A stretch of DNA of 39,185 nucleotides from positions 1 through 39,185 of IMG/VR virus record IMGVR_UViG_3300046533_000691. One strand, written 5' to 3'. The DNA is from a virus. The notes beneath the pieces were generated by a model. The model did not search any database. It was not told the origin of the DNA and worked only from the letters and a program-made list of their open reading frames with translations. How positions within the stretch are numbered: the first letter of the stretch is position 1; each line of letters starts with the position of its first letter. Positions 20,316-30,929 of this stretch are shown here, piece after piece. The position numbers and the translations under genes were made by a program.

Positions 20316-20990
20316 TCACAATTTTTCGATCTGCGCAATAGCCAATTCGACAGGCGTTGAGCGCCAAAAAATGTTGACCTCGACCGTGACGCGGCATCTG
20401 TCGTCGTCGATAGCGATGATGATCGCACCGAAGGAAGCGAACGGTCCATCAGCCACCCGCACGATCTCTTCGACCATGAAGCCATGATCCATTTTTCCAC
20501 GATGATCGTATTTCCCCTCAAGAGCCATCGCCTTGAATCTATCAATGGATTTATCGTCTGCGCGATAAGGGCGATCAGCGCCGCCGACGATGCCAATAAC
20601 GTGCTTTACTGACAGCAAACCCATCATCGCCTGAGGCATTGGAAGGCACCTGATCAGGATATAGCCCGAGATCACGGCGCGCCCTGACACGGTGCGAACG
20701 CGGCCTCGATTGACTATTTTCTCTTCTCCAGAGCGAACAACCAACGTCTCAACGTCAGCGTCATCGAGCACTTTTTCCACAGTCCCTTCGCTGCCTACCC
20801 GCACCTGAAGGCAATACCAGGCAGGTTTCATGTCCGGTTCGTCTCGAACGATTCGGGCAACTACCCCCTTCGAAGCCATCGACAGGTGGCCGATTCGCAT
20901 CCTCGTGAGACCAGACGCGTTGTCGCTGCGCCTCCATCCCTCTGGGCTTACGCGCTCGTCGAGATGGAAATCGCCCCGCTTATGCTGCAT
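20316..20990 (-). CDS. NusG-family transcription factor, candidate late antiterminator
   Basis: A 224-residue protein. KPAWYCLQVRVGSEGTVEKVL (about 60-80) is the opening strand and helix of a NusG N-terminal (NGN) domain. SGYILIRCLPMPQAMMGLLS fits the middle of that domain, and GFMVEEIVRVADGPFASFGA near 170 is a KOW motif. The first 55 residues are an extra charged region. The start at 20990 is favoured because GAGG lies 8 bases upstream; it overlaps the replication gene by 11 bases. As last gene of the early operon, directly before a terminator and the late block, it may act like lambda Q or RfaH. That role is inferred. Confidence 0.82.
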   Translation of the reverse strand: MQHKRGDFHLDERVSPEGWRRSDNASGLTRMRIGHLSMASKGVVARIVRDEPDMKPAWYCLQVRVGSEGTVEKVLDDADVETLVVRSGEEKIVNRGRVRTVSGRAVISGYILIRCLPMPQAMMGLLSVKHVIGIVGGADRPYRADDKSIDRFKAMALEGKYDHRGKMDHGFMVEEIVRVADGPFASFGAIIIAIDDDRCRVTVEVNIFWRSTPVELAIAQIEKL

Positions 20991-22152
20991 CGTCATTTCC
21001 TCGACCCTCGCTGATTGCCCGCTCGAATTCAGATATCGCTTCCTCCGGCTCACCAGCCGGGAAGAATAGCCACTCGACACCCTTCGGAATGGGTAGCCAT
21101 GGCCAGCCTTTGCGCTCGTGTAATGCCTTCCAGCGAAGCGCTTGAGCGCTGTCGCTGCGGACTTGCACGAAGCTTTCAGAGATGACTGCAAGAGGAGCTG
21201 GCACCGTCACGCCCTGCGCGTTCAGCGCCCGCTGGTGCATCGTGTTGACCTTCGGCCACCCGTAATTCCGTAGCCTGTCCAGCATCAGCGCTTCCGCCTT
21301 GGCGCCGCCCGCCTGCAGCTCCCCCTGCTGGAACTTCGACATAACGGGCATTACCGTGGACACGTCCTTCAGCAGCTCAGCAAGCCGGCATGCGCTCCAC
21401 GCCTTCGAAAATGGATTTGGTACCGATGGTGACGCTACCTCGGACTTGGGATCTGCCAGCTTCTCCCAAGCCTTGCCCTTGAGATAAACGCTGGCGTAGG
21501 TGAACTTGCCCTTGGTCGCTCTAACCGCCGCGATGAAGGCCGGCGTACGCTCGGTGCATCTGGACCGATCGTCTGGCGTGAGACGATGCCACTCCTTTCG
21601 GGCTGCGTCCTCGCTGTCTCCGACGTAGGTTGGCCAGGTCGGATACCAAATCTTGAACTCTCGTTCGATCTTCTTCCCGTCAACCTCGCTCGCACGCTCT
21701 CTCTCGATTACAGGTTCTTTTACAGGTTCCCTTACAGGTTCTATTGAGGACTCAGGAGTCCGGTTCAAACCGTCTGAAATGTCCGGTTCAAACTGCTCAG
21801 AATGTCCGGTTGAATCCGCGTTTGAGGCGGACAAATTGTCCGGTTCATTTTCGGCAATTTCGGGCTTTTCGGAGCGGCGAAAACCGCCCTCAAACGCAAG
21901 GCTGTAGCGGTTCGGGCGACGGTTTTTGCCTTCCCGCTGCTCGACCCAGTTGATGTGACCCTTGTCGCGCAGTGCATCGAGCGAGCGCCGGACAGAGCGC
22001 ACATCAAGCTCGCAGGCCTCGGCAAGGTAGTCCTGCTTCGGGTAGCAGCCGTAAACGGGGTTGTGGCAATCCGCCAGGTGCCAAAGCACCCGCGCCTCGG
22101 CGCAGGAGATCCCACGCACCTTCACTGCCCACATGGTGGCTTCGTGGCTCAT
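20980..22152 (-). CDS. Phage replication initiation protein with N-terminal HTH
   Basis: A 390-residue protein. Residues 10-90 form a winged helix (ISCAEARVLWHLADCH, EACELDVRSVRRSLDALRDK) like phage O-type and HTH_36 replication proteins. Residues 100-150 are a flexible linker with EPVREPVKEPV repeats. Residues 150-240 (FKIWYPTWPTYVGDSEDAAR, FTYASVYLKGKAWEK) resemble the C-terminal region of rhizobial phage replication proteins. The linker DNA carries two arrays of repeats like an iteron origin, as in lambda O. The start at 22152 lies in an ATGA overlap. Confidence 0.72.
   Translation of the reverse strand: MSHEATMWAVKVRGISCAEARVLWHLADCHNPVYGCYPKQDYLAEACELDVRSVRRSLDALRDKGHINWVEQREGKNRRPNRYSLAFEGGFRRSEKPEIAENEPDNLSASNADSTGHSEQFEPDISDGLNRTPESSIEPVREPVKEPVIERERASEVDGKKIEREFKIWYPTWPTYVGDSEDAARKEWHRLTPDDRSRCTERTPAFIAAVRATKGKFTYASVYLKGKAWEKLADPKSEVASPSVPNPFSKAWSACRLAELLKDVSTVMPVMSKFQQGELQAGGAKAEALMLDRLRNYGWPKVNTMHQRALNAQGVTVPAPLAVISESFVQVRSDSAQALRWKALHERKGWPWLPIPKGVEWLFFPAGEPEEAISEFERAISEGRGNDDAA
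21708..21847. repeat. Iteron-like arrays within the replication gene (candidate origin)
   Basis: Array A: three exact TTACAGGTTC copies at 21708, 21720 and 21732, spaced 12 bp. Array B: GTCCGGTTCA at 21758, 21781 and 21838 and GTCCGGTTGA at 21804, spaced 23, 23 and 34 bp, close to whole helical turns. The last copy is half of an inverted repeat CGGACAA-A-TTGTCCG (21828-21842). Lambda-type origins lie inside the initiator gene in the same way. Confidence 0.65.
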
Positions 22153-22388
22153 GCGTCACCGCCGATCTGCACGAGCTGCGCCGCGTCCAGAAACGCGCGG
22201 AACCGACGCTCAACCTGCGACTTGGCGTCACCGCATGACGACGCACGACCGGCATGAACGTGGCCTCTGCGATTGATCCAGATCCGCCAATGCCAGATTA
22301 CTGCGCTGCTGCCCGGTTGGTAGACGGCGCCGACAGCAACGTCGCCGCTGAAGAGGGCGGTGCGATATCCTTCGTCGTGCCAGATCAT
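22149..22388 (-). CDS. Small hypothetical protein between methyltransferase and replication genes
   Basis: A 79-residue protein (MIWHDEGYRTALFSGDVAVG, then VIWHWRIWINRRGHVHAGRA) rich in Trp, His and Arg. Comparable proteins occur in rhizobial phage early operons, but I know no function. ATGA overlaps with both the upstream methyltransferase and the downstream replication gene show that it is a real part of the operon. The longer frame starting at 22403 is less likely. Confidence 0.65.
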   Translation of the reverse strand: MIWHDEGYRTALFSGDVAVGAVYQPGSSAVIWHWRIWINRRGHVHAGRASSCGDAKSQVERRFRAFLDAAQLVQIGGDA

Positions 22389-24511
22389 GCCGCCACCTGC
22401 CAAAGTGCCAGATGGCCACAGTTGGCGCCGACGATCGCCGCAGCGACAGGGGGTGAGACAGAGTTACCGACGCAGGAGACTTGGACAGATTTCGAGAATG
22501 TCCGCCATTGCGGCTCACTGCCGTCCCTAGGCTGCGACCATGCGCCATCGATTACATAGTCAAGCGGGAAGCCTTGCGCGTTGTACAACTCGCGAGGAGT
22601 GAGCATTCGCATGCCTATGTCGACGATAACGAATTCACGTTCGCCGATCGTCAACGTGACGAATTCTCGGTCGTCCCAAAAGCCATGCGAGCGGAGGAAG
22701 TCCGCCACCTGTCGTGCCCGCGCGTGCTGATCGTCCGTGAAGGGCGGCGCTGCAACGCCGGCCTCGACGTGAGCGAATCTCGGCTTTGTCGTCACCGTAT
22801 GGAACGGTTCATCCTCAGGCGTATCCTGATCGGAGCCGTAGTAGGCATGTAGGTGCGGAGCGACCAGAACGGACTTGCCGCCGCCGGCCGCCGTAATCGT
22901 AGCGGACGGTTCGTCGATTGCGTGGCCAGTCGACGTTCCGAACTGTCGAGAGATGAAGGCGGAGACAACGCCCTGTTGCGCGCCAGACGCTGTCACCGTC
23001 GAGATAGGCTCATCAGCGGCTCGTCCGGGGTTCCCAAGCCCGCTATGACCGTCAATGTTGTGCTGGGCAACGAAGGCGACTGCCGTTGCATGCTTCACAC
23101 CGCCGGCAACCACCGTTCCGAGCGGCTTCGCTAGATCCAGCGAGCGCGGCTCTTGGCCGGCCCGCTCACCATATCCGGTTTGGATCAGCGTCGGTACGAT
23201 CACCGAATTCTGATCCTTCTGGCTTGCCGTGATAGTGTGGTGAGGTTCGTCGACCGGCCGGTTCGCGCCGCCTTGTTGGGCGTATGTCAAAACCGGGGCG
23301 ACGATGGAGAGGCCCGCGCCGCCGGCGGTGATGGTGTGCGTCGGCTCGTCAGCGCCATTGAACGGTTTGCCAGCGTTGCGCATGGTCATGAGATGCGGAG
23401 AAATCACGCCGATCGGCGCCGCGCCGCCGGGCCGCTTGATGTAACCGTTGGCAGTGATAGTCGACAGAGGCTCGCGAGCATCCTGTCCCGTTGCACCGGA
23501 GTTGAAGCGGATGACCGATGGCGAGATGACAGCCTTCTCGCCACGATTGGCGCCGGTGATGGTGTTGAAGGGTTCGGCGACGTCTTCGGTTCGCGCTCCA
23601 TGCGTCAGGTTGACGATGAACGGTCGTTCCGCGTCGAGAACGTAGCGCTTCATGCCGCGTGCTACGCGAGCCATCGTGTTGTTGGCGAGAGGACGAACTG
23701 CCCTCAGACCGTGCTTTACCATGACATCCGCGCCCGTATCGAAGATCGATGGGCAAGGCAATGACCAGTCGATGACTTCAGCCGCGGTACGCCATCGCAG
23801 CTTGCGACCGGCAATGACATCGCGATCTGCCGGAGCACCATGCGTAGGCTTTGGCCAAACAATCTTCTGGCCATCGAAGCGGATTATAACGAACAGACGC
23901 TTGCGGATCGTCGGAGCGCCATAGTCGCAAGCGCGGAGCTCGCGCCACTCTATCTTGCCGCCAAGCTTGCGAAGCGCCCTGCACCATTGCTGGAAGGTTT
24001 CGCCCTTGCGCTCGGGATCTGGCATCAGCCCGCGATCGGTCTGCACAAGAGGACCCCAGAACTTGAATTCCTCGACGTTCTCCATGAAGACGACGTCGAC
24101 CTTGCCGCCGCTCTTCTGGATACGGTCGACCCAATGGACGATTACCCACGCGAGATCACGAATGTTGCGCTCGACTGGCTTGCCGCCTTTCGCTTTCGAG
24201 AAATGCTTGCAGTCCGGTGAAAACCACGCGGCGCCAACATGACGGCCAACTAGGTGGTCGAGAGGATCGACTTTGTAGATGTTTTCCGACAGGTGCAGGG
24301 TGTTCGGATGATTGGCGGCATGCAGCGCCAATGCATCGGCGTTGTGATTGATGGCGAGATCGGGCGAACGACCAATCGCCATCTCGATACCCTTAGATGC
24401 TCCGCCGCCGCCGGCGAAGCCGTCAAAGATCACCGGTGGCAGGCGACCGGTCGACGTCCATGTCTGCGGAAAAATTGGCTCCACCCCGAAAAGATCCCCA
24501 GCGTACATCAT
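22385..24511 (-). CDS. Large C5-cytosine DNA methyltransferase with repeated target region
   Basis: A 708-residue cytosine-5 methyltransferase. Motif I is FDGFAGGGGASKG (29-41) and motif IV is FSPDCKHFSKAKGG near residue 97, with the catalytic Cys in PDC rather than the common PPCQ. Motif VI is FMENVEEF, VIII is the RKRLFVIIRF region, IX/X end with GFPLDYVIDG and VSCVGNSVSPPVA. Between VIII and IX are about eight copies of a unit of the type DEPxxTITAxG followed by a VVAPxL strand, making the protein almost twice the usual 330-400 residues. It likely protects phage DNA from restriction. The start at 24511 overlaps the upstream stop (ATGA); 24508 is an alternative. Confidence 0.9.
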   Translation of the reverse strand: MMYAGDLFGVEPIFPQTWTSTGRLPPVIFDGFAGGGGASKGIEMAIGRSPDLAINHNADALALHAANHPNTLHLSENIYKVDPLDHLVGRHVGAAWFSPDCKHFSKAKGGKPVERNIRDLAWVIVHWVDRIQKSGGKVDVVFMENVEEFKFWGPLVQTDRGLMPDPERKGETFQQWCRALRKLGGKIEWRELRACDYGAPTIRKRLFVIIRFDGQKIVWPKPTHGAPADRDVIAGRKLRWRTAAEVIDWSLPCPSIFDTGADVMVKHGLRAVRPLANNTMARVARGMKRYVLDAERPFIVNLTHGARTEDVAEPFNTITGANRGEKAVISPSVIRFNSGATGQDAREPLSTITANGYIKRPGGAAPIGVISPHLMTMRNAGKPFNGADEPTHTITAGGAGLSIVAPVLTYAQQGGANRPVDEPHHTITASQKDQNSVIVPTLIQTGYGERAGQEPRSLDLAKPLGTVVAGGVKHATAVAFVAQHNIDGHSGLGNPGRAADEPISTVTASGAQQGVVSAFISRQFGTSTGHAIDEPSATITAAGGGKSVLVAPHLHAYYGSDQDTPEDEPFHTVTTKPRFAHVEAGVAAPPFTDDQHARARQVADFLRSHGFWDDREFVTLTIGEREFVIVDIGMRMLTPRELYNAQGFPLDYVIDGAWSQPRDGSEPQWRTFSKSVQVSCVGNSVSPPVAAAIVGANCGHLALWQVAA

Positions 24512-24792
24512 TCCCCCAATCTGTTCGGCGGCAGGCCGCAAGCAATTCGGTTCGCCCGCCCACGAGCCACCGCAAGTTTCAATCCGTCCAAAGGCGTGCC
24601 GTCGTCTCGACGTGGCTCGCGCATGCTGGTGAGTTCGGCGTCGAGATAGGCGACGCCAGCCTGAAAATGTGCCTGTCGCAACGCAGCGCGGATCGCACTT
24701 TCGTCCCGCGCGAGCACAGACAATGGTGATTGCAGCAGCCAGAGAATCCGTTGCTGCTCGGTCGTGCAGTCGGAAAGATCGGCCTCCATCAT
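24508..24792 (-). CDS. Small hypothetical early protein
   Basis: A 94-residue helical protein (TEQQRILWLLQSPLSVLARD, then ALRQAHFQAGVAYLDAEL) with no motif I recognise. ATGA overlaps with both flanking methyltransferase genes show tight coupling. It may assist one of the enzymes or be an unrelated phage protein. Confidence 0.6.
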   Translation of the reverse strand: MMEADLSDCTTEQQRILWLLQSPLSVLARDESAIRAALRQAHFQAGVAYLDAELTSMREPRRDDGTPLDGLKLAVARGRANRIACGLPPNRLGE

Positions 24793-26432
24793 GCCGCCTC
24801 GCTTTCCGAGATTAGGACCAGATAGCGCCCGTCTGCATCCGCCTGACCGACGATCCCGGCGCCGATGAACTCGGAAATCAGCGCCTCGGCGACGCTTTCA
24901 CGCATGCCAATCGCCCTGCGCAATTCCGGTCTGTCGAAGTCCGTTCGACCGCGCAGCCAAGTGAGCGAGCGCTCCCGCTCTTCGTCGAGGCGCTCGTCGA
25001 GCGTTTTGCGCGGCGTCTCGCGTGTAAAATCCTCGACGAAATATGCGCCGACGACATGACCGCCGGCGCCTGGCGACCGTGCGTCAGCGTCGACGTAGTC
25101 CGTCCAGTCGACACGCCGCATCAGCGTCTCGTCGCCATAGCCTCCGTCGTCCCGCCGTTCCCACACGAACCACGCCGTGTTCATCCGGCTCGACGCCTTC
25201 GGGCCGTCCCATCCTTCCCGGTGCATCATCGGTAGGCGGCGCTTGAAGATGTAGACCCGCGCCGGCGGATTTTCGTCCATGACGAAGCTTCGCGCCTCGT
25301 CCGCAAAGCCACAGAGGAAATTGAGATTCAACAGGAGGGCCATCTTGCGCGGGCGATGCTCGCGCAGCGCATGTGCCACGAAATCGTTCAGAACCTCGCC
25401 GTAAGGGGGGTTGGTGACGATGTCCGCGCCGATGCCTCTCTCGTCGCGTCGACTGGCAAGGAAATCGCCGGTCGCCTGCAGCTCGCCATCCTTGTCCGCC
25501 GCGCCTCGATCGACGAGATCAGAAAGAATGACCTCATATCCTCGGTCTTCGAGAACGTGCGAGATGGCCCCTAGGCCGCAGGCTGGTTCCCATATCGTAG
25601 GAGTGAAACTTTCGAAGGCTAACAGCGTCCGGGTGGCAACGTCCGGCGTCTGATAGAAATTGTCACCGCGATCCGCCTTTGGCGCAGAAGCCGTGCCTAC
25701 CGCCGCGCGTAGATTTGCCCGGCTTGGCTCAAGCCCCGATTCGAGACGAGCCGCGATCGCCCGCTCGACCAATCCCGGCGCGATCCGCTCTGCTTCTGCG
25801 AGCTTTCGCGCCTCGTGGATATCCTTACGGCTGAGCCCCGCTTCTTCCGCTGTAAAAGCGTTCTCGTCTGGAACGCTTTTCGGGCGGCCCTTCAAGGTTC
25901 TGCCTTCGCTATCAGCTTGATCCCAAGCGGCGGCGATCTGCATTTTCGCGCGCGCCTCGATCAGCAGTGCATCGCCTTGCAACTGCCGAGCCTTGGCGAT
26001 CAGCCGCTTGCCGTCCTCTCCGAAGGTCGCTGCATATTGCGCTGCCGCCTTTGCTTCGAGATAGGCGCCGCCCGCCAGGCGCTTGGCCGCGAGCACGTCG
26101 CCGTCGTCAAGCAATGCTCGCGCCCGCTCCACGGTCTGCGTCAGGCCCGATGCGTCCGAGCGCGGACCAACGATGTCTGTTGGCGCATCCTCGACGACGG
26201 ACGGCGCGACAATCTCTGTTTTTTGGGTTGCGACCGGATATAGCGACCTTGCTTTTTCGGTCGGATACCACGTTGTCGCTTTCACCTTATCACGCGAAAG
26301 CAGTCCCCTGCCGTTGAGGCCTAAGCAACGCTGGCGATCCTTCTGCGTGCTGTCGACGTAGACGCCCGTTTCCAGCGCCGATTGCATGACGAGGGCCGCC
26401 TGAGTTCCCAACTTTGAGATCTCTGTGATCAT
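24789..26432 (-). CDS. N6-adenine DNA methyltransferase fused to N-terminal regulator-like region
   Basis: A 547-residue protein. The C-terminal half has the S-adenosylmethionine site IWEPACGLGAISHVL and the catalytic DIVTNPPYGEVLNDF (NPPY), identifying an N6-adenine methyltransferase. After it come a region that may read the target and a winged-helix-like end (LRRAIGMRESVAEALISEF). The N-terminal 230 residues include a winged-helix-like segment and a helical array ending GLSRKDIHEARKLAEAERIA, as in some phage ParB/antirepressor-like proteins. The ATG at 26432 is in an ATGA overlap. With the cytosine enzyme downstream it gives the phage two modifications. Confidence 0.82.
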   Translation of the reverse strand: MITEISKLGTQAALVMQSALETGVYVDSTQKDRQRCLGLNGRGLLSRDKVKATTWYPTEKARSLYPVATQKTEIVAPSVVEDAPTDIVGPRSDASGLTQTVERARALLDDGDVLAAKRLAGGAYLEAKAAAQYAATFGEDGKRLIAKARQLQGDALLIEARAKMQIAAAWDQADSEGRTLKGRPKSVPDENAFTAEEAGLSRKDIHEARKLAEAERIAPGLVERAIAARLESGLEPSRANLRAAVGTASAPKADRGDNFYQTPDVATRTLLAFESFTPTIWEPACGLGAISHVLEDRGYEVILSDLVDRGAADKDGELQATGDFLASRRDERGIGADIVTNPPYGEVLNDFVAHALREHRPRKMALLLNLNFLCGFADEARSFVMDENPPARVYIFKRRLPMMHREGWDGPKASSRMNTAWFVWERRDDGGYGDETLMRRVDWTDYVDADARSPGAGGHVVGAYFVEDFTRETPRKTLDERLDEERERSLTWLRGRTDFDRPELRRAIGMRESVAEALISEFIGAGIVGQADADGRYLVLISESEAA

Positions 26433-26758
26433 GCCATCGCCCTCCGGTAGGTCTTCCAACCGTCGAGGATGCGAACGATCGTCGGTTCGGAGACGCCGAG
26501 ACCCTTGGCGATCGTCGCCGTATCCCACTTCTCGCGTGCCCGGAGGAGCAGGGTCGCACCGACGATGGCATCCAGATCGAGATCCGTGATCGGCATGCTC
26601 TTCTCGCGCGCGCAGATCGCCGCGAAACCGATGTCGAAGACCTGACCCATCCAGAGCGATGAAGCGACACCGCGCTCTCGCGCCTGTCGCTCCAATGTCT
26701 GCTTTGCCTTTTCGGGAACGGAAAGTGTTATGCCGACCATCTTGGAAGCCGCCATCAT
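26429..26758 (-). CDS. Small DNA-binding protein (RHH-like plus HTH)
   Basis: A 109-residue protein. Residues 5-40 (MVGITLSVPEKAKQTLERQA) resemble a ribbon-helix-helix, and residues 80-105 (WDTATIAKGLGVSEPTIVRI) are a helix-turn-helix. It probably regulates the early operon. GAGG lies upstream of the start at 26758, and an ATGA overlap links it to the preceding small gene; another ATGA links it to the adenine methyltransferase. Confidence 0.65.
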   Translation of the reverse strand: MMAASKMVGITLSVPEKAKQTLERQARERGVASSLWMGQVFDIGFAAICAREKSMPITDLDLDAIVGATLLLRAREKWDTATIAKGLGVSEPTIVRILDGWKTYRRAMA

Positions 26759-29637: not shown

Positions 29638-29809
29638 CGCACAAGAGATCGAACGCCTTTACCGCGCCGTCGCCGATGGCGAGCCCCAGCGCGAGATCCT
29701 GCAGCTGATCTACGATCTGTTCGGCGAACACTTCGACCTTCGCCCACCAGTCGCTGAACTGCGTCTGGCTTCCCTCTGTGGGACAGGGGGGGGTGTCAAG
29801 CGTGGCTGA
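29624..29809 (+). CDS. Small hypothetical protein upstream of clamp gene
   Basis: A 61-residue acidic helical protein (MDVTDAQEIERLYRAVADGE, LQLIYDLFGEHFDLRPPVAE). GGAGG lies 8 bases before the ATG at 29624, which is inside the preceding gene by 14 bases. A run of eight Gs (29786-29793) lies near its 3' end, just before the clamp start. Function unknown. Confidence 0.62.
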   Translation: MDVTDAQEIERLYRAVADGEPQREILQLIYDLFGEHFDLRPPVAELRLASLCGTGGGVKRG

Positions 29810-30929
29810 AGCTCCATTCTTCCGCGTCCATCGTGGCGCTCTCTTGGCAGCACTCGACGCTGTCATCGAGGCAGTCGACGCGAAGGCAACAATCCCGATC
29901 CTCGGCAATGTTTTGCTGCGTCCCGCCGGCGACATCCTCCGCATCAGCGGCACGAACCTCAATATCGAGATCGATACCTCCTGCGAGCTGCTGGATGAAG
30001 GCCAGGGTACGGCCTTGACCTTGTCCGGGACAGATCTTCGCGATATCGCCCGAAAGCTCCCGGAAACAGCAGAGCTGGTGTTTTCCGCCGGCGCATTTCC
30101 GGGCCAGGTCGTCGTTAAGGCCGGCCGCAGTCGCTTCGCATTACTCTCTCTTCCGGAAAGCGATTTCCCATCGATTGCCGAGAAGGCGACGGGCGAAAGT
30201 TTCGAGATCGATTCCAGCGTCCTTATGGGTGCGTTCAACAAAGTCCTTTATGCCGTCCGCGAGGATGAGCCGCGATACTATCTAGCGGGCGTCTGTCTTC
30301 ACCCGTTTGCCGATGGCGACAAGATTTCCGTCACTGGCACCGATGGCCACAACCTTGCTGTTGTTCGCATAGCGGTCGATACCAAGGTTTCGTTCTCGCC
30401 GATCATCGTGCCGCTAAAGACGATCAAGGCTCTAAAAAAGCTGACTGCCGATGGAAAGACGCGCGCGCGCCTCACGATCTCGGCTGCGATGATGAAGATC
30501 GAATGCGCGGGAACCACCCTGATCTCCAAGTTGATTGACGGGACCTATCCCGACTACATGCGAGCGGTCCCCGGAAAGAGCGACAAGGAAGCCTTGGTCG
30601 TCGTCGACGCGCTCCGCTCCGCTCTGGGTCGCGTCTGCCTCGTTTCTGATGACCTGTCCGAAGACACCGTACAGATGCGCATCGGAGCCGGCGGAATCAA
30701 TCTGCTCCTGTCAACGAGGCAGGGCGAGGAAGGCTCCGAGGAGCTTGGTGCGGAGTACGACGGCGACGCCGTCGAGATCGGCTTCAACGGCAAGTACTTC
30801 ATCAACATGCTCGGTAGCATCGCGACGCAGGATGTTCGGATGTTCTTTTCGGACGCCGGAACTGCTGGCCTCTTCAAGCCGACGATCGATAGCGACGAAC
30901 TTTACGTCCTAATGCCGAAGAGGTTCTGA
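29802..30929 (+). CDS. dnaN: DNA polymerase III beta subunit (sliding clamp), phage copy
   Basis: A 375-residue, full-length beta clamp, near the bacterial size (about 370). The three-domain pattern is clear: first domain HRGALLAALDAVIEAVDAKA and TIPILGNVLLR; second around FPSIAEKA and GVCLHPFADGDKISVTGTDG; third through KLIDGTYPDYMRAVPG to the C-terminal YVLMPKRF, which matches the family end (MPM/MPKR). The start is GTG at 29802 (VAEAPFF), overlapping the previous stop by 8 bases (GTGGCTGA). It would hold a polymerase on phage DNA or divert the host replisome, and it is expressed from PL rather than with the replication gene. Confidence 0.93.
   Translation: MAEAPFFRVHRGALLAALDAVIEAVDAKATIPILGNVLLRPAGDILRISGTNLNIEIDTSCELLDEGQGTALTLSGTDLRDIARKLPETAELVFSAGAFPGQVVVKAGRSRFALLSLPESDFPSIAEKATGESFEIDSSVLMGAFNKVLYAVREDEPRYYLAGVCLHPFADGDKISVTGTDGHNLAVVRIAVDTKVSFSPIIVPLKTIKALKKLTADGKTRARLTISAAMMKIECAGTTLISKLIDGTYPDYMRAVPGKSDKEALVVVDALRSALGRVCLVSDDLSEDTVQMRIGAGGINLLLSTRQGEEGSEELGAEYDGDAVEIGFNGKYFINMLGSIATQDVRMFFSDAGTAGLFKPTIDSDELYVLMPKRF

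Follow-up and report, generated by a model that had tools for sequence, protein, structure and literature searches.

Direct repeats inside the replication initiator gene of the virus analysed here very probably constitute an iteron origin of the type found within lambda gene O, carried in this case by the gene of an HTH_36 initiator. The window, a virus record of 39,185 bases, encodes on its minus strand (positions 20980–22152) a 390-residue protein with an HTH_36 winged helix at its N-terminus (Pfam, E = 1.8e-13), which also matches the PHROG profiles phrog_270, replication initiation protein (E = 3.7e-35), and phrog_391, O-like (E = 4.8e-16). HTH_36 is the sole Pfam match of the protein, and no Pfam family of lambda O is matched. 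Its predicted structure (mean pLDDT 70.9, from a 10-sequence alignment) comprises a winged helix (residues 3–85), a low-confidence linker predicted to be disordered (residues 97–156) and a helical C-terminal part. A Foldseek search with this model found nothing better than weak matches to winged-helix folds (best E = 0.023), MarR-like ones among them, and a sequence search found no relatives of solved structure. According to Pfam the phage encodes an integrase, and it appears to be temperate with Rhizobiales-type hosts (soil bacteria). A NusG-like gene (Pfam) lies next downstream of the initiator gene, and no helicase loader gene was identified downstream; a full DNA polymerase III beta clamp with three Pfam domains is encoded at window positions 29778–30929. 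The proposal of a probable origin in the repeats of the linker, made in the initial annotation, is supported by sequence and conservation evidence.

The direct repeats sit between the DNA-binding and C-terminal domains, and all of them fall within the predicted linker at residues 97–156, as had been claimed. Four copies of GTCCGGTTSA (hereinafter designated B iterons) recur at the spacings of 23, 23 and 34 bp given for them earlier. On the minus strand, iteron 1 (TGAACCGGACA, 21837–21847) and iteron 3 (TGAACCGGACA, 21780–21790) are read as EPD, iteron 2 (TCAACCGGACA, 21803–21813) as STG and iteron 4 (TGAACCGGACT, 21757–21767) as NRT, the same DNA thus occupying three frames. The second repeat set, array A (21708–21741, minus strand), holds three GAACCTGTAA units, and the three TTACAGGTTC copies described at exact 12-bp steps are indeed present at 21708, 21720 and 21732; directly downstream on the same strand lies a GAGAGAGAG tract (21697–21705). 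The pattern AACCGGACA matches four times in the 39 kb against 0.23 expected, with four or more matches in none of 100 shuffles, and GAACCNGTAA matches three times against 0.04 expected window-wide, with none of 100 shuffles reaching three. Synonymous recoding of the window gene reached four B sites or three A sites in 0 of 5000 trials. The B signal is one of exact clustering: when one mismatch is allowed in the 11-base motif, the window holds 8 matches against 4.5 expected, a count reached by 5 of 100 shuffles and not significant. A fifth exact copy, CGAACCGGACA, lies outside the linker at 20831–20841, inside the downstream NusG-like gene; it is absent from ten relatives and probably due to chance. 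No Rfam match was found, and folding of the strand is within the ordinary range (z = -1.26).

Comparison with related genes indicates that the repeats are constrained as DNA, not as protein. From 60 genes with a type-1 HTH we kept 23 with less than 97% HTH nucleotide identity, and each of these carries 2 to 4 copies of the B core AACCGGAC, which occupy three frames in 21 genes and two frames in the other 2. The alignment of related replication genes that had been set beforehand as a check thus shows that all 23 genes retain the repeats, against a background of changing residues elsewhere in the linker and in the C-terminal part. Among pairs of type-1 genes, the frequency of the same codon given the same residue is 0.906 in the B iterons, 0.967 in the inverted half-site (see below) and 0.792 in array A; the corresponding values are 0.577 for the HTH and 0.538 for the C-terminal part. 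By column, codon conservation is higher than in the HTH for B (p = 4.8e-7, Mann-Whitney) and for A (p = 0.005), these and the later p-values serving as guides only because the genes are related and do not count as independent observations. Linker codons outside the repeats reach 0.796 as well, and the codon constraint thus extends beyond the repeats. The earlier suggestion that the protein may be shaped by the DNA repeats is borne out by array A, which encodes EPVxEPVxEPV, TSNRTSKGTGN or NQSYNQSYNQSFNQ depending on the frame. Across initiators the EPV frame is used in most, the second, TSNRTSKGTGN-like frame in L047, L048, L050, L299, L310 and L333, and the third in L108. In host genome G345 (L063 and L209) a stop lies within the type-1 initiator frame and the iteron array is still present.

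The iteron sequence covaries with the initiator's DNA-binding domain, to which it appears to be matched. The iteron core was found in its own HTH type in 23 of 23 type-1 genes, 36 of 40 type-2 genes and, with expressions picked after viewing the sequences, 45 of 54 type-4 genes, and every other combination gave 0; the type-2 and type-4 sets were restricted to less than 90% identity and proteins of at least 180 residues, L266 was excluded, and the type-4 viral relatives are the best 80 of 177. Some type-1 genes encode proteins that, over their whole length, share just 43–46% identity with that of the window, and these carry the same iterons. Conversely, L005–L007 are 61–63% identical to the window protein over residues 139–389 but differ from it in their HTH, and the repeats found in them are CCGGCACCCCCTGCCGGT; since relatives sharing the C-terminal half but having another HTH carry other repeats, the iterons would seem to travel with the DNA-binding domain. 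Where the HTH is more distant (46–50% identity; L025 and L026), a changed core, AACCGGCAA, occupies the corresponding places. Of 394 genomes from a single host family, 3 contain the exact three-copy, 23-bp-spaced B pattern (reversed control, 0), and these are the same three genomes that encode the type-1 HTH (E = 1.8e-50 or better). In viral contigs, 19 of 21 stretches with the B pattern lie within an initiator gene, and the ~7-kb loci of 10 relatives hold a single B copy outside the gene (L015, position 944). In the other two of the 21 stretches, from viral contigs L199 and L204, no initiator gene surrounds the 23-bp B pattern, which in L204 resembles a tandem repeat.

The inverted half-site reported previously does exist, on the plus strand at 21823–21834, adjoining and facing the iteron copy at 21837. 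It is degenerate in the window and perfect in several relatives, being intact in 12 of 23. At least one half of this site is intact in all 23 type-1 genes, and in the 6 that have lost the direct half the inverted half is intact every time (p = 0.014, by codon columns); scored by regular expression, which could also match another copy, the same compensation gives p = 0.068. A terminator-like hairpin on the plus strand at this site (21828–21842) is probably a chance occurrence, with 1 found against 0.9 expected in shuffles.

Array A behaves differently from the B iterons. Under a relaxed test that gave 0 in three controls, the iterons are followed by 12-bp-spaced units resembling AACCnGTAA in 23 of 23 type-1 genes and in 32 of 54 type-4 genes (viral relatives being the best 80 of 177). 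The count for type 2 is 0 of 40 genes, which have other sequence at this place, with TAACGA-like units in the copies inspected. These type-2 and type-4 counts rule out that array A is universal. In other initiators (L094, L096, L145, L148, L151 and L153) it stands directly downstream of their own distinct repeats. The initial annotation had described two iteron arrays; both repeat sets are real, and A probably does not consist of further iterons of the B kind, as B varies together with the HTH and A is common to several HTH types. A single motif underlying both arrays through a shared GGTTC core was considered and rejected on the same grounds, the two looking unrelated in L108. A GAGAGAG tract is present within nucleotides 380–570 in 20 of 23 type-1, 36 of 40 type-2 and 12 of 54 type-4 genes (type-4 viral relatives, best 80 of 177). 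Within the gene, GC content is lowest at array A (40-nt mean 0.40; 0.375 in the window, the 0.3rd percentile; the lambda bin, at 0.32, is more extreme), which adjoins a purine peak of 0.72. One review describes the AT-rich region of lambda as having nearly all purines on one strand, and initiators as binding single-stranded unwinding elements (PMC5043065); taking this together with the GC minimum and the purine peak, we read array A and the GAGAGAG tract as a candidate unwinding region. In the enteric phage SfV (L057, 2001–2819), the replication gene contains direct repeats of its own and, directly after them, A-like GAACCAGTCAA units, and a dam gene lies downstream.

Other explanations of the repeats have to be weighed against an origin. 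They might be a by-product of a repetitive EPV protein linker and have no function as DNA, and EPV-like repeats do occur at the same DNA pattern in unrelated proteins: a scan of viral contigs for the A pattern gave at least 119 stretches (37 with an antisense longest ORF, 5 short or lacking an ORF), and among the matches listed, 73 unique sense crops include 33 that match HTH_36 and 36 that match phrog_391, so that about half of those listed are not initiators. This explanation is nevertheless already contradicted, and we regard it as scarcely credible: within the window the B copies occupy three frames, as does array A across initiators, and the EPV units use GAA for all 55 Glu and GTA for all 55 Val residues, compared with 239 of 658 Glu and 29 of 481 Val codons elsewhere in these genes.

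A function as DNA other than replication is also conceivable. The repeats could be operators only, at which the HTH protein blocks transcription of its own gene from within, as the winged helix with its weak MarR-like fold matches and the annotation of the PPF1 homologue as a putative transcriptional regulator would allow. Against this, the matching profiles are those of replication initiators, the site is located over 300 nt into the gene, beside an AT-richer array, as in lambda ori, and a scan of 21400–22400 for promoter-like sites of the sigma-70 consensus found 0 with 0.1 expected; we consider a purely regulatory role unlikely, and the two functions are not exclusive because an origin may also autoregulate. 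Iteron arrays in plasmids also act in partition and incompatibility, and the array might be such a site or another protein-DNA site. That the iteron sequence tracks the initiator HTH speaks against this, as does the integrase, since a phage that encodes one need not partition as a plasmid does, and a site of this kind seems very unlikely.

The candidate origin also contains GANTC sites, the sequence recognised by the cell-cycle methyltransferase CcrM; like the GAGAGAG tract, this cluster had gone unremarked in the initial annotation. A pair lies between iteron 4 and array A (21749–21760, starting at 21749 and 21756), and a third starts at 21812. The window as a whole has 44 GANTC sites against 143 expected from base composition or 226 from a first-order model, and three of them are in the 140-bp array. 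GAGTC is found between the last iteron and array A in 23 of 23 type-1 genes, with a GACTC partner in 16 of 23, and GANTC beyond nucleotide 600 is found in 0 of 23. In types 1, 2 and 4, respectively (type-4 viral relatives, best 80 of 177), GANTC density per kb is 12.59, 4.61 and 7.70 in the linker and 0.00, 0.94 and 0.44 in the C-terminal part, and no other motif of the same make-up has this contrast in all three types. GANTC thus appears concentrated and conserved in the candidate origin, a pattern to be read with the composition of the linker in mind. The window further encodes, at 24789–26528 on the minus strand, a DNA methyltransferase (phrog_799) that is 48% identical over a 562-column alignment to phi2LM21_p21, an enzyme which PMC5537653 reports to be experimentally GANTC-specific; the same paper places such methyltransferase genes upstream of replication genes and speculates on regulation. 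A C5 cytosine methyltransferase gene lies upstream of the initiator gene (22385–24541), as it does in PPF1 and phi2LM21.

There is an even chance that the GANTC cluster is incidental, arising from linker composition while avoidance acts on the rest of the gene only. Synonymous resampling of the linker without avoidance yields 35.7 sites for type 1, 40.8 for type 2 and 52.1 for type 4 (viral relatives, best 80 of 177), where the genes themselves have 55, 35 and 79; types 1 and 4 thus show a moderate excess and type 2 none, and part of the type-4 count is GAGTC within the iterons. On the other side, the C-terminal parts of the same genes hold 0, 30 and 13 sites against 31.7, 79.1 and 56.7 after resampling (again the best 80 of 177 type-4 viral relatives), and because these counts fall so far below expectation, the linker escapes the avoidance of GANTC. 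The retention of GAGTC in every type-1 gene and the GANTC-methyltransferase homologue encoded by the phage also argue against coincidence.

The comparison with lambda O drawn in the initial annotation holds in position and in frame usage: the lambda iterons start at nucleotides 348, 368, 392 and 415 of the O gene (annotated span, 348–432), the B cores of the window start at nucleotides 307–387, and each set occupies three frames. Lambda ori and the origins of Stx phages share with the window four iterons in mid-initiator gene, in several frames, beside an AT-richer, purine-asymmetric tract (PMC7466680; PMC5043065). The window differs from them in an HTH_36 initiator that lacks a Pfam O-family match, in a regular array of 12-mers in place of a simple AT-rich tract, in a partly inverted first site and GANTC sites, and in having no loader gene identified downstream. 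Within the lambda kind, the candidate origin is set apart by its extra layers, namely the shared 12-mer array, the GAGAGAG tract and the GANTC sites. According to PMC11514494, repABC ori2 of the alphaproteobacterium Agrobacterium likewise has a putative origin with GANTC in an initiator gene, repC; GANTC is over-represented at repABC loci, including putative origins within repC, and CcrM promotes repABC expression and ori2 function. RepC is another initiator, encoded in a plasmid-type operon with partition genes, and the likeness considered here is one of layout. The RK2 repeats and the oriC 13-mers are likewise short and adjacent to initiator sites; they open and, as single strands, bind the initiator (PMC5043065), a role that array A may share; the window units differ in being 12-mers that are less AT-rich, coding and common to initiators of differing iteron specificity.

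These features are consistent with a mechanism in which the winged-helix N-terminal domain would bind the four B iterons and the partly inverted site, the initiator–iteron complex would open the adjacent AT-richer, purine-asymmetric array A and GAGAGAG tract and hold them single-stranded, and the C-terminal part would bring in the host helicase. The linker would be a tolerant, predicted-disordered stretch because the DNA must be kept, and the conservation pattern fits its tolerating residues encoded by the repeats in any frame. GANTC, kept in the array and avoided elsewhere, may render initiation sensitive to CcrM-type methylation by the host or the phage enzyme, which makes a methylation-sensitive phage origin a testable prediction. 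The initial annotation had named GC skew as a check, and it gives no clean switch at the array. More tentatively, and as a possibility that we think somewhat less likely than its negation, the coding sequence may hold a two-layer origin, with swappable iterons that go with the HTH followed by an AACCnGTAA 12-mer array and GAGAGAG tract shared across initiator specificities, in which retained GANTC sites would let the phage CcrM-like methyltransferase or host CcrM gate initiation. We found no description of this array, or of GANTC at a phage origin, in titles and abstract openings that mostly leave subscription journals outside, a coverage that does not establish absence in print.

For a large and poorly explored group of phages, in which the initiator often carries no annotation beyond that of an HTH protein, the analysis would pinpoint where replication starts and provide sites to test. 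It also suggests a possible target of CcrM-like methyltransferases in alphaproteobacterial phages, a matter left as speculation in PMC5537653. The same DNA kept in three frames would make this initiator gene a clear example of a protein sequence moulded by the function of its DNA.
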